DNA from: Phytoactinopolyspora mesophila
GTDB lineage: Bacteria > Actinomycetota > Actinomycetes > Jiangellales > Jiangellaceae
NCBI RefSeq assembly: GCF_010122465.1
Contig: NZ_WLZY01000007.1
Location: forward strand, 348,934 to 412,933
Length of the DNA: 64,000 nucleotides
Direction: 5' to 3'
The notes under the pieces are model-generated. The model had not been told where the DNA came from. It saw only the letters and a program-made list of their open reading frames with translations, and did no database searches. Position numbers and translations under genes: made by a program. Below are positions 14,570-18,620 of this stretch, in pieces (position 1 is the first letter of the stretch; each line of letters begins with the position of its first letter).

Positions 14570-14778
14570 GCGCCCATACTGCCGCCTGCGACCGACAGAC
14601 TATGCGCCAGCCTGAGCTCGAGGCCGGTTGTTCCGCACGCCCCGGCCGCGCCGGGCGATGTCACATTCCCGAGTACCCCTCCGTCTTGTTTATGAACGAA
14701 ACGCGGCAGCACGGAAGGCGAGACGGGTATGGGTCACCCGGTTGTTGACAGCGCGCGGACCTTTGGTGACGCGAATCA

Positions 14779-16443
14779 ATGGACGCAGCCATGAGCACCA
14801 CGACGCGAACTCACGAAAAGGCCGGCGCCAGCACACATCCAGCCATCGAGCAGGCAGGCAAGCTGGTCAATTTCTTCGACGAACGGATCAGAGCAAGTAA
14901 TTGGCTGAAGCGGAACCTGCGGAAGGTCTTCCCGGACCATTGGTCCTTCCTGCTCGGCGAAATCGCCATGTGGAGCCTGCTCTTGGTCATTCTGTCCGGG
15001 ATCTTTCTCACGTTCTGGTTCAAGCCGTCGATGGCACACGTCACCTATGAAGGCGCCTACGTGCCCTTGCGCGGCCTGGTGGTCTCGGAGGCCTACGCCT
15101 CTACGCTCAACCTTTCCTTCGAGGTCCGCGGTGGCCTGCTGATGCGCCAAGTCCACCACTGGTCCACCCTGGTTTTCATCGCCGCCATGGCGGCACACAT
15201 GCTGCGGCATCTTTTCACCGGGTCGTTTCGCAAGCCACGCGAGCTGAACTGGCTGGTAGGGCTCAGCTTGCTGGTTCTCGGCATCACCAACGGGTTCTTC
15301 GGCTACTCGCTGCCCGACGACCTGCTGTCCGGTACCGGCCTTCGGATCGTCGAAGGCGGAATACTGGCGGTGCCAGTGGTGGGAACTTACCTGTCCTATT
15401 TCATCTTCGGCGGCGAGTTCCCCGGAGAAGACATCATTTCCCGGTTCTACGTGTTCCACATCCTGCTGGTGCCGGGGGTGATTCTGGCGCTGCTCGCGTT
15501 GCATCTGGTCCTGTTGTGGTACCAGAAACACACCCACTGGGGCGGCCCGGGCCGGTCCGAGAAGAACGTGGTGGGCTACCCGTTCTTCCCGATGTACATG
15601 ACCAAGGCCGGCGGCTTCATGTTCATCGTCTTCGGCTTCATCATCGTGATGGCGGCGACGATCCAGATCAACCCGCTCTGGCTCTGGGGGCCCTACGATC
15701 CGGCGTCGGTCAGTGCCGGAACTCAACCGGACTGGTACATCGGTTTCCTCGACGGCGCACTACGCATCATGCCCGCATGGAAGATCGACGTCTTCGGGTC
15801 AGAGCTGGCGCTCAGCGTCCTGATCCCGGCCGCCGTCCTCCCAGGCCTCATCGTCACCGTGCTGGCGTTGTATCCCTGGATCGAACGGAAGATCACCGGC
15901 GACACCCGTGAGCACCACGTGCTCGACCGCCCCCGTAACGTCCCGGTCCGCTCCGGTCTCATCGTCGGGTTCATCGTCTGCTACGTACTGCTGTGGATCG
16001 CCGGCGGGAACGACCTCTTCGCCAGCGTGCTGAACATCCCGGTCAACTGGGTCTCACGGTTCCTGCAGCTCAGTGTCATCCTCGGACCGCCGCTGGCGTT
16101 CTGGATCACCAAACGGATCTGTCTCGGCCTGCAACGTCGTGACCGAGACAGAGTCTTGCATGGTCGCGAGTCCGGCGTCATCGTCGTCAGCCCCGAAGGC
16201 GAGTTCACCGAACGCCACACAGCACTATCCGCCGCTGAGGCCTACACCCTCACCGCCCACGAACACCACGTCCCGTTCGACCCCGGGCCTCCCACGGACA
16301 AGCACGGCATCCCGAATCCGGCCTACAAGAAGAACCTGCGCCGGGCCCGCATATCCAGGTTCTACTTCGCCGATGTGATCCAGAAACCGACGACGGCAGA
16401 ACTCAGCGCGGCACACGAGCGACACCAGGAGATCCAGGGTTGA
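14779..16443 (+). CDS. qcrB: Cytochrome bc1 complex cytochrome b subunit (orphan copy)
   Basis: 554 residues, with ATG 14779 or 14791. Eight to nine hydrophobic helices are visible. Two haem-b histidine pairs lie on helices II and IV (QVHHWST with AAHMLRHLF; FYVFHILLV with ALLALHLVLL). The quinol-site loop reads QPDWYIGF, where PEWY is more usual. The long hydrophilic C-terminal extension is characteristic of actinobacterial QcrB. It oxidises menaquinol in the bc1-aa3 supercomplex. The normal neighbours qcrC, qcrA and ctaC-E are absent here, so this looks like a second or relocated copy. Confidence 0.9.
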   Translation: MDAAMSTTTRTHEKAGASTHPAIEQAGKLVNFFDERIRASNWLKRNLRKVFPDHWSFLLGEIAMWSLLLVILSGIFLTFWFKPSMAHVTYEGAYVPLRGLVVSEAYASTLNLSFEVRGGLLMRQVHHWSTLVFIAAMAAHMLRHLFTGSFRKPRELNWLVGLSLLVLGITNGFFGYSLPDDLLSGTGLRIVEGGILAVPVVGTYLSYFIFGGEFPGEDIISRFYVFHILLVPGVILALLALHLVLLWYQKHTHWGGPGRSEKNVVGYPFFPMYMTKAGGFMFIVFGFIIVMAATIQINPLWLWGPYDPASVSAGTQPDWYIGFLDGALRIMPAWKIDVFGSELALSVLIPAAVLPGLIVTVLALYPWIERKITGDTREHHVLDRPRNVPVRSGLIVGFIVCYVLLWIAGGNDLFASVLNIPVNWVSRFLQLSVILGPPLAFWITKRICLGLQRRDRDRVLHGRESGVIVVSPEGEFTERHTALSAAEAYTLTAHEHHVPFDPGPPTDKHGIPNPAYKKNLRRARISRFYFADVIQKPTTAELSAAHERHQEIQG

Positions 16444-16486: not shown

Positions 16487-17356
16487 CTACAAGGTGGGAA
16501 AGTCGAGTCGCCTGATGCGTTCGGGGTCGGCGAGTACCTCGATGACGGTGATCGCCTCAGCGACAACCGTGAAACCCATCAACACGAACGGCTTTGCGCT
16601 GAGCATCACCACAACTCCAGCGCGGCCATTGACCAGCACCGGGTGGAGGACCGCGTTGGGGATGGCAAACCACAACGCGCGGCGCGCCACCTCACCGGAT
16701 CCGCGCACAATCACAGACAGCGGCTGTCGTGCGGCACCGCCGTCGGAATGCAGCACGACATCCGGATGGAGAACGGATACGAGCCGAGCGAAGTCGCCGT
16801 CGCGGGCTGCGGCGAAGAAGGCGTCGACGACCCTGCGCTGGCTAGACATGTCGGCGTCGGGAACCGTAGCTCCCCTGACGCGTCGCCGCGCACGGCTGGC
16901 CAGCTGACGTGCCGCGTCAGGTGTGCGTTCGATCATCGTGGCGATCTCGTCGAAGGGCACCGCGAAGACATCATGCAGTACGAAAGCCAGCCGTTCGGGC
17001 GGAGTCAGCGCATCGAGGACGAGCAGTAGAGCCGCGCCGACCTCGTCAGCCAGGATCGCTTCCTCGTCGGGGCCGACGGCATCGACACGATGCACTACCG
17101 GATCAGGCACATGGCGGTCGAGCGGGACCTCCGTTCTTGTCCTGCGAGAACGCAGCCTGTTGAGGCAGATCCGCGCTGTCACGGTCGTGAGCCAACCGTC
17201 GAGGTTGTCTATACCCTGCCCACCGGCACGGTCGAGACGCATCCACGTCTCCTGAACAGCATCCTCCGCCTCATCGCGGGTTCCCAGCATCCGGATCGCG
17301 AGAGCGCGCAGCCGATCCCGGCGCTCCTCGAACTCATCAGTCAGGTCCGCACCCAT
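16487..17356 (-). CDS. ECF sigma factor of the ECF41/SigJ type with C-terminal SnoaL-like domain
   Basis: 289 residues from ATG 17356, with GAAGGG 8 bases upstream. Region 2 (RMLGTRDEAEDAVQETWMRL) and region 4 (LTPPERLAFVLHDVFAVPF followed by an HTH) are followed by an about 120-residue SnoaL/NTF2-like domain (VVDAFFAAARDGDFARLVSV). ECF41 factors carry this extra domain as a built-in modulator, usually with a DGGGK motif; here it reads SDGGAARQPL. ECF41 genes usually sit next to a carboxymuconolactone decarboxylase, oxidoreductase or epimerase gene, and an oxidoreductase gene lies divergently at 17519. No anti-sigma gene is present. Confidence 0.9.
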   Translation of the reverse strand: MGADLTDEFEERRDRLRALAIRMLGTRDEAEDAVQETWMRLDRAGGQGIDNLDGWLTTVTARICLNRLRSRRTRTEVPLDRHVPDPVVHRVDAVGPDEEAILADEVGAALLLVLDALTPPERLAFVLHDVFAVPFDEIATMIERTPDAARQLASRARRRVRGATVPDADMSSQRRVVDAFFAAARDGDFARLVSVLHPDVVLHSDGGAARQPLSVIVRGSGEVARRALWFAIPNAVLHPVLVNGRAGVVVMLSAKPFVLMGFTVVAEAITVIEVLADPERIRRLDFPTL

Positions 17357-17357
17357 T

Positions 17358-17419
17358 GGTCACATCCCTTCGCCGCGACGGGTCATGGTAATGACCCGCC
17401 ACCCCGGCGGATCGTGACG
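17358..17419. promoter_or_regulatory. Overlapping divergent ECF41-type promoters
   Basis: Rightward: GGTCACA (17358-17364), 16 bases, GGTC (17381-17384). Leftward: CGTCACG (complement of 17413-17419), 16 bases, GGTC (complement of 17393-17396). The reported ECF41 consensus is TGTCACA, N16, CGTC. The two -10 elements form the arms of a perfect 7-4-7 palindrome at 17380-17397. This would give an autoregulated sigma gene and a co-regulated oxidoreductase gene. The match is imperfect (6/7 and 5/7 at -35, 3/4 at -10). Confidence 0.5.
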
Positions 17420-17438: not shown

Positions 17439-17522
17439 ATGCAACCACGAATCGATCAACCTGCGCCCGCGTACAGCCGCCTCGGCACCGTGACCCGCAA
17501 GATGGACGGAGCGGCATCGTGA
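17439..17522 (+). CDS. 27-residue ORF translationally coupled to the oxidoreductase
   Basis: ATG 17439 has GAGGAG about 10 bases upstream and encodes 27 residues beginning MQPRIDQPAPAYSRLGTV. The stop overlaps the next gene's GTG (GTGA), so translation would be coupled. The sequence weakly recalls the N-terminus of carboxymuconolactone decarboxylase/AhpD-like proteins, which are frequent ECF41 partners. It could therefore be the relic of such a gene or simply a leader peptide. The resemblance is only suggestive. Confidence 0.4.
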   Translation: MQPRIDQPAPAYSRLGTVTRKMDGAAS

Positions 17523-18220
17523 CCGGCATACGAATCGCCCTCTTCGGTGCTTCCGGCCGGACCGGTCGCCGTCTCATCGCTCAGGCCATTCCCGCCGGCC
17601 ACGAGGTGATCGCCGTGACACGCCGCCCCGACAGCATCCGGCCGAGGGCTGGCCTGCGGGTGATAGTCGCCGACGCCACTAACACCACCGCTGTCGAGAA
17701 GGCCGTTGCGGGTGCCGACGCTGTGGCGTCCGCACTGGGGGTGCCCTACAGCCTGAAGCCGATCTCGATCTATTCCGCCGGGATCGCCAATGTGCTCGGT
17801 GCGATGGATATCCATGGCGTGCGACGCCTGGTCGTGGTCAGCTCAGCACCGCTCGATCCTGCGTACCGAGCCAGAGACTCGTGGCTGTTCACCCGCGCGA
17901 TGGAGCCGCTACTCATGCGGTTGCCCGGGCGAACGACCTACGACGATATGGCCCGCATGGAGTCACAAGTCACCGGTAGTGGTGTGGAGTGGACAATTGT
18001 GCGCTCGTCGTGGTTGTTCGACGCAGCTGCCGTCAGCGCCTACCAGCTGGTCACAGGCACACCCACAGGCATGTACACCGCTCGTCCAGACCTGGCAGCC
18101 GCCATGCTCGCGCAGCTCACCGACCGGCGCTACCTGCGCCGTGTCGTCGCCGTGAACACCACCGAGGGCACGCCCCGCCTGGTCACGCAGATCTGGCGGG
18201 AGAACATCAAGGGCAGGTGA
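17519..18220 (+). CDS. NAD(P)-binding oxidoreductase, atypical SDR (NmrA-like)
   Basis: 233 residues from GTG 17519 (TGIRIALFGASGRTGRRLI). The GASGRTG loop is the Rossmann GxxGxxG of atypical short-chain dehydrogenases. Further features are a D-A-T segment after the second strand (IVADATNTTAV), RRLVVVSSAPLD, and a late WTIVRSSWLF strand. There is no YxxxK, which fits the atypical NmrA/epimerase-like group that binds NAD(P) for redox sensing or small reductions. It is divergent from the ECF41 sigma factor gene and probably its target. Confidence 0.85.
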   Translation: MTGIRIALFGASGRTGRRLIAQAIPAGHEVIAVTRRPDSIRPRAGLRVIVADATNTTAVEKAVAGADAVASALGVPYSLKPISIYSAGIANVLGAMDIHGVRRLVVVSSAPLDPAYRARDSWLFTRAMEPLLMRLPGRTTYDDMARMESQVTGSGVEWTIVRSSWLFDAAAVSAYQLVTGTPTGMYTARPDLAAAMLAQLTDRRYLRRVVAVNTTEGTPRLVTQIWRENIKGR

Positions 18221-18236: not shown

Positions 18237-18620
18237 TCACCACGCTGGAGGCCGGCTCGCGATTCGACGGCCGGCTGAACCAGGTTCGGGCTCGTCGAGC
18301 AACGTGTTGAGCATTGACACTGCGGAGCCGATCCGCTCGAGGTCGGCGGTCATGCGCTGGCGTTCACCCAGAAGACGTTCCCGACAACCGTCGAGCATGG
18401 GCGAATCGTCCGACATGCACGCAAGAATCTCGCTGATGATGTCCAGGCCCAAGCCGGCAGACAGCAGGGTCTGGATCTGGCCGACGGTCCGCACGGCGTG
18501 GTCGTCGAAAATCCGATAACCACTCGGAGTCCGGCGCGGCTTCAACGCACCCTTCTCCTCGTAGTACCGCAACGCCCGCACGCTGACTCCGGTCCGTTGC
18601 GACAGTTCGCCAATCTTCAT
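18237..18620 (-). CDS. MerR family regulator
   Basis: 127 residues with the N-terminal winged helix MKIGELSQRTGVSVRALRYY and the SGYRIFDDHAVRTVGQIQ segment, followed by a coiled coil (ERLLGERQRMTADLERIGSAV). The C-terminal effector region is short and has a single Cys (C98 region, DGCRERL), so a metal is not strongly suggested; an organic inducer is equally possible. It is divergent from an MFS exporter gene with a MerR-type dyad between them, which makes the exporter its probable target. Confidence 0.9.
   Translation of the reverse strand: MKIGELSQRTGVSVRALRYYEEKGALKPRRTPSGYRIFDDHAVRTVGQIQTLLSAGLGLDIISEILACMSDDSPMLDGCRERLLGERQRMTADLERIGSAVSMLNTLLDEPEPGSAGRRIASRPPAW

Follow-up and report, generated by a model that had tools for sequence, protein, structure and literature searches.

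Here, we provide evidence that a 62-bp site at positions 17358-17419 of a 64,000-nucleotide stretch of the Phytoactinopolyspora mesophila genome (contig NZ_WLZY01000007.1; this stretch is hereafter called the window) is very probably a bidirectional promoter with mirror symmetry, used by RNA polymerase together with the adjacent ECF41-type extracytoplasmic function (ECF) sigma factor and driving both the sigma gene and its neighbour. The site sits between the sigma gene (16487-17356, minus strand) and a gene with a GTG start for an NAD(P)-binding oxidoreductase (17519-18220, plus strand; Pfam NAD_binding_10, 2.2e-35). ECF41 target promoters carry the motif TGTCACA-N16-CGTC (Wecke et al. 2012, PMC3426412). 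The original prediction placed two mirror-image matches to this motif at the site, one facing the sigma gene and the other the oxidoreductase, with a palindromic -10 region in common, and we confirm the coordinates, the sequence and both directions. The geometry of the two matches also stands, while both -10 elements read GGTC and not CGTC.

Read rightward, the site is GGTCACA-N16-GGTC and read leftward CGTCACG-N16-GGTC, in exact mirror register about the centre 17388.5, and 38 of the 62 positions match their own mirror complement. The oxidoreductase-ward promoter comprises the -35 element GGTCACA (17358-17364, plus strand; consensus TGTCACA in PMC3426412) and the -10 element GGTC (17381-17384, plus strand). 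The sigma-ward promoter comprises, by sequence match, the -35 element CGTCACG (17413-17419, minus strand) and its -10 element GGTC (17393-17396, minus strand). The inner ends of the -10 elements lie at 17384 and 17393, i.e., the two are 8 bp apart, and together they build the 7-4-7 palindrome GGGTCAT-GGTA-ATGACCC (17380-17397). Relative to TGTCACA-N16-CGTC, the oxidoreductase-ward half has two mismatches and the sigma-ward half three; both retain an intact GTCAC core, the N16 spacer and GGTC. Symmetric letters thus occupy both strands at a fixed short separation, and the 60-bp mirror element GTCAC-N18-GTCA-N6-TGAC-N18-GTGAC (17359-17418) is the putative core of the bidirectional promoter.

The sigma factor has 289 amino acids, with sigma2 and sigma4 domains and a SnoaL-like C-terminal domain, as indicated by Pfam, SigJ and Protein Data Bank (PDB) matches. 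Sigma70_r2 (5.5e-11) and Sigma70_r4_2 (5.9e-9) both score above their cut-offs. SnoaL_2 matches residues 177-277 (E 2.6e-5) with 25.2 bits, below the curated 27, and we count this region as the C-terminal extension of about 100 residues expected of ECF41. The best structure match is SigJ (PDB 5xe7, 4.3e-40), spanning residues 6-231, and the SigJ subfamily model gives 1.6e-74 and 250.8 bits, below its cut-off of 271. The WLPEP motif is absent from the sigma2-sigma4 linker, which reads HVPDP. Because of this substitution and the SigJ score below cut-off, we call the protein ECF41-type and not ECF41. Two further ECF41 traits are the COE-type neighbour, here the NAD(P)-binding oxidoreductase, and the promoter TGTCACA-N16±1-CGTC, which is present in both directions, but with two and three mismatches.

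Recurrence of the mirrored element

A single half alone carries little weight, because the window holds 55 such sites with up to two mismatches and 541 with up to three (spacers of 15-17 bases). This abundance is what speaks for a chance palindrome in high-GC DNA. Searched at up to three mismatches, the complete mirror pattern occurs in the window once, without any mismatch, and a match within this threshold turned up in 10 of 100 dinucleotide shuffles. Recurrence elsewhere argues strongly against chance. With up to one mismatch, the pattern was found in 46 of 393 genomes of the class, and the reversed control gave none among the matches listed. A search by DNA only, with a free centre of 0-30 bases, returned 47 exact sites in 42 of the 393 genomes, as compared to one site for the reversed control, and although no protein entered this search, 44 of the 47 sites adjoin an ECF41-type sigma gene. 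A chance origin is hence extremely unlikely.

The mirror geometry is strongly fixed. The centre measures 6 bases at 40 of the 47 exact sites (one of which, G303, is a repeat array), 7 bases at five, and 11 and 22 bases at one each. Sigma proteins at sites with centres of 6 or 7 bases are 43-100% identical to the window sigma. The exact sites without a sigma match are the repeat array (surroundings not fetched), L067 (none in 3 kb) and L171; among sites with one mismatch, L166 lacks a sigma match and the one in G249 was left unfetched. The site at L067 (L067:1501-1560), with no sigma match in 3 kb, closely resembles those at L065 and L068, and is possibly an orphan left after loss of the sigma gene.

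The mirror is present in Actinomycetes and, once, in the acidobacterium Terriglobus (L035), which is the sole cross-phylum support. A second mirrored locus (L123) lies in the genome of P. mesophila itself, next to a sigma gene whose product is 51% identical to the window sigma over the compared stretch. For a view that starts from the sigma gene, we compared 121 upstream regions of sigma homologues, made up of 61 loci (the window's included) and the next 60 in order among the matches listed. Motifs in both directions occur in 42 of these regions, and in 23 of the 42 the outer ends of the -35 elements are 61-62 bases apart. No close orthologues of the window locus were found, the best homologues among the matches listed being about 60% identical. 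The original prediction had named conservation of the -35 and -10 positions as a check; it is borne out at homologous loci of up to about 60% identity, not in close orthologues.

Next commonest among the fixed ECF41 layouts is a back-to-back arrangement with the -35 elements 6 bases apart, seen at five of the 121 loci (L127, L128, L129, L133 and L136), all of which have a candidate leaderless divergent gene.

Palindromes of 18 bp are typical of operators, and the palindrome could instead bind a dimeric repressor or activator, the promoter matches being incidental. A gene for a MerR-family regulator nearby (18237-18620) fits this idea, as does the mirrored GAC that is kept at some one-way promoters. 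The pattern of conservation points the other way. The -35 elements at N16 on both sides belong to the recurring element, and 44 of the 47 exact sites adjoin ECF41-type sigma genes. Among 33 non-redundant sites, the A after GTCAC is kept in 28 and the first base of the -10 element is C in 25, both beyond the letters fixed by the search pattern, whereas the six bases in the centre vary freely (0.03-0.33 bits). Moreover, the outer letter of the palindrome tracks a residue of the sigma factor, as shown below. We regard an operator as very unlikely.

Residue 66 of the sigma factor and the first base of the -10 element

The two halves of mirrored sites are matched in the first base of their -10 elements. 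This base is identical between halves in 29 of 36 non-redundant mirrored sites (shuffled mean 17.7; none of 5000 shuffles as high) and, under a stricter cut, in 12 of 15 (6.6 by shuffling). Spacer bases agree between halves no more often than by chance (131 vs 136.7). Near-duplicate sigma sequences were dropped from these analyses of bases and residues. Among 51 distinct mirrored sigma proteins, with the mixed locus L116 set aside, residue 66 fully separates the promoter classes: it is Asp at all 35 loci with CGTC and Asn at all 15 with GGTC or TGTC, while the next best column of the sigma alignment reaches 0.73 on a scale of 1.

The same correspondence holds in a wider sample of 166 aligned loci without near-duplicates, 110 of them with a promoter, in which one-way promoters are included. 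Loci with Asp66 have CGTC in 104 of 105 promoters (58 of 58 sigma-ward and 46 of 47 target-ward; the exception, at L116, is TGTC). Loci with Asn66 have GGTC or TGTC in all 67 promoters, with GGTC in 29 of 29 sigma-ward promoters and GGTC in 24 and TGTC in 14 of 38 target-ward ones. A single locus with Gly66 has CGTC both ways. These counts include L070, whose residue 66 is unreliable because the locus looks frame-disrupted, and L114, which is counted twice target-ward. The window sigma has Asn66 (codon at 17159-17161, minus strand) and GGTC in both halves, so that its departure from the CGTC of the original prediction is what the protein predicts.

We also placed 101 sigma proteins on a tree. 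It requires at least 10 changes between Asp and Asn (11 without the residue-66 column), four of them forced by supported branches, and at least 6 changes of promoter class (7 without that column); the two traits agree in all 81 rows that have both. L004, with Asp and CGTC in both directions, is a tree neighbour of L079, which has Asn with GGTC and TGTC (support 93).

The correspondence strengthens the idea that one sigma factor may read both halves. Residue 66 presumably lies in the C-terminal helix of sigma region 2. From structures, Lin et al. (2019, PMC6372665) suggested that this helix may read the C-G pair just upstream of the -10 element, and here a single Asp/Asn position tracks C versus G/T across natural loci. 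We do not claim such a code as new, since one that links residues to bases in ECF factors generally is already in the literature (Todor et al. 2020, as cited in PMC8103513). The Asp/Asn66 correspondence would help to predict target promoters of ECF41-type factors from the protein, and it opens a direct test of how the base immediately before the -10 core is recognised.

Divergent neighbours and one-way promoters

The plus-strand promoter was expected to face the oxidoreductase gene. Its direction agrees, but the first open reading frame (ORF) behind it has 27 codons (17439-17522, plus strand) and resembles the N-terminus of carboxymuconolactone decarboxylases. The ORF is preceded by a Shine-Dalgarno-like GAGGAG, and its TGA stop overlaps the GTG of the oxidoreductase gene. 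Aligned with the N-termini of six carboxymuconolactone decarboxylases, it reaches a mean BLOSUM62 score of 20.3, with 3 of 20000 shuffles as high, and such decarboxylases hold its place at the mirrored loci L033, L035, L071 and L152. The ORF may be the remnant of a carboxymuconolactone decarboxylase gene, or possibly a translational coupler.

Across loci the family of the divergent gene varies while the mirror element persists. Divergent genes at mirrored sites encode NAD(P)-binding oxidoreductases, carboxymuconolactone decarboxylases, a glyoxalase-like protein, MFS and MMPL transporters, flavodoxin-fold reductases and an FAD-binding protein. When the window oxidoreductase was searched against the first 61 loci (tblastn, E 1e-3), it matched, besides itself, just L031, where the gene is divergent and adjacent, and weakly L060. 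Partners elsewhere belong to other families or are too distant.

Orientation of the neighbour was judged from ORF length and third-position GC content, not from annotation, with up to two mismatches allowed in a mirror; 32 of the 121 loci were unclear. The neighbour is divergent at 20, co-directional at 6 and unclear at 6 of the 32 mirrored loci. The corresponding numbers are 4, 12 and 3 for the 19 loci with a sigma-ward promoter only, 9, 0 and 11 for the 20 with a target-ward promoter only, 9, 1 and 0 for loci with both motifs in another layout, and 17, 11 and 12 for loci without motif. Among clear cases, mirrored and sigma-ward-only loci differ (20 vs 6 against 4 vs 12; Fisher p 0.0014), so the reverse half tends to accompany a divergent gene.

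These one-way loci also bear on the possibility that the window site descends from a two-way promoter of which only one half still works while the other decays as a relic. One half is kept in many homologues (19 sigma-ward-only and 20 target-ward-only of the 121), the sigma tree requires at least 17-18 changes of mirror state, and the sigma-ward half of the window is the weaker one (3 vs 2 mismatches). Yet both window halves keep the GTCAC core, the N16 spacer and the GGTC expected for Asn66, and neither lacks its -35 element, as is visibly the case in some relatives of mirrored loci. A relic in the window is unlikely, though less so than an operator.

Several observations weigh against a two-way promoter. 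Most homologues are unmirrored, with a mirror in 32 of 121 even at two mismatches. Many of the loci are related, and a significant tree test is precluded because just two supported independent pairs exist, both of which agree. At several mirrored loci the gene upstream is co-directional and a clear divergent target is missing, so that the reverse half is not always explained. Finally, among promoters without an exact mirror -35 element, 17 of 33 sigma-ward and 7 of 34 target-ward ones still have TGAC or GAC in the mirror -10 position, though these include near-mirrors, leaderless starts and relatives of mirrored loci. The palindrome may therefore be in part a relic or serve at the start site, and the TGAC of the mirror -10 element may reflect just a start-site preference.

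Mirrors with a co-directional upstream neighbour are those at L116, L081, L110, L113, L154, L089 and L168 (L110 and L168 with one mismatch), where the reverse half would run antisense towards the neighbour. The co-directional neighbours of good mirrors encode a FAA hydrolase, OpuAC, an Fe-S protein, an esterase, a bestrophin-like protein and an aldo/keto reductase. Several loci that resemble these lack the mirror -35 element, which seems to have decayed there once the target was gone.

A role of the GTGAC ahead of the sigma start as a translation signal was also considered; it is disfavoured, as one-way sigma-ward loci start without GTGAC.

Predicted starts and possible self-limiting feedback

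Transcript starts of the bidirectional promoter can be predicted from candidate leaderless genes, sought where a gene start falls just 5-13 nt after the C of GTC in an ECF41 promoter. Twelve such candidates start at 8 nt (four), 9 nt (six), 10 nt (one) and 7 nt (one, doubtful). Following the distance of 8-9 nt seen in 10 of the 12, transcription in the window would start at 17392-17393 (plus strand) towards the oxidoreductase and at 17384-17385 (minus strand) towards the sigma gene, the latter giving a leader of about 28 nt.

Loci L010, L012, L013, L009 and L015 have a target-ward ECF41 promoter with its -35 element beside the sigma start. In each, a candidate leaderless gene for an NAD(P)-binding-like protein begins 9 nt after the -10 element.

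Polymerase bound one way at the window site would transcribe the sigma gene, resulting in positive autoregulation, and bound the other way it would transcribe the 27-codon ORF and the oxidoreductase gene. The predicted starts are 7-9 bp apart, each at the edge of the opposite -10 element, which lies inside DNA that must melt. Two polymerases presumably could not melt and hold this DNA together, and only one would act at a time. Mutual exclusion, as already proposed by the original prediction, would follow from this geometry, given that bidirectional promoters are reported to be sterically closed to a second polymerase while one is bound (Warman et al. 2026, PMC12825309). The sigma factor is itself the activator and should raise transcription in both directions; competition, if any, is therefore expected only at high sigma activity, when output would be split between sigma and target.

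It is tempting to propose, as a tentative model that we consider possible but rather doubtful, that the site provides self-limiting feedback. With the autoregulatory and the target promoter forming one symmetric site, whose halves would be matched by a one-residue/one-base code, each polymerase that makes sigma mRNA would block the target and vice versa. Output would then be shared out close to a set ratio, positive feedback would be kept from running away when the sigma is highly active, and noise would fall. In Escherichia coli, the five promoters tested had too little basal activity for polymerases to compete, but strong activation one way could repress the other direction and lower noise (PMC12825309).

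Neither bidirectional promoters nor divergent ECF41 loci that carry the motif on each side are new. Wecke et al. (PMC3426412) described divergent <ECF< >COE> loci; of 55 loci, 36 have the motif ahead of the sigma gene and 41 ahead of the COE gene. Their loci and ours are alike in the -35/-10 motif and the divergent layout and differ in the -10 sequence, with CGTC as consensus there and GGTC here. The main text of that paper has no wording on palindromes, symmetry, mirrors, bidirectionality or inversion, and its sections covered here report no fixed overlapping mirror. Bidirectional promoters of E. coli, a class said to be hardly studied, have common start separations of 18, 10 and 23 bp, with starts that flank a shared sigma70 -10 element or fall inside it (PMC12825309). 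In contrast, the window site would serve an alternative sigma factor, has two separate -10 elements and both -35 elements, and one of its products would be the sigma factor. A word search of PMC12825309 gave no mention of ECF factors. In the literature searched, including word searches of the accessible text of PMC3426412, PMC8103513, PMC8999054 and PMC12825309, we found no report of the fixed mirror geometry, which is weak evidence of absence as most subscription papers and all supplements lay outside the search. The natural set of such sites is widespread, one sigma factor appears to read both directions and would itself be one product, and dozens of natural variants (mirrored, one-way and decayed) are available for testing how competition shapes feedback.

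A further ECF41 promoter upstream of a second qcrB

The window contains another, perfect ECF41 promoter (14659-14685, plus strand), an exact match to TGTCACA-N16-CGTC located 121 nt upstream of a second gene for the cytochrome b of the bc1 complex (qcrB; 14779-16443, plus strand; NF050120, 4e-217). The genome has a further qcrB copy, 74% identical to this one. The two closest qcrB homologues (L173 and L174, 84% and 82% identical) also carry the exact motif, and an ECF41-like match is present within 300 bp upstream at 5 of 25 qcrB loci, with L173, L174, L193 and L188 (weak) among the matches. No such match occurs in the 300 bp upstream of qcrB copies at 67-77% identity (L175-L182, L190-L192). 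An ECF41-like sigma gene lies near qcrB in convergent orientation downstream at L173 and in divergent orientation at L193-L195. Judged from these motifs and neighbourhoods, an ECF41-type sigma factor may control an alternative cytochrome b of the bc1 complex.
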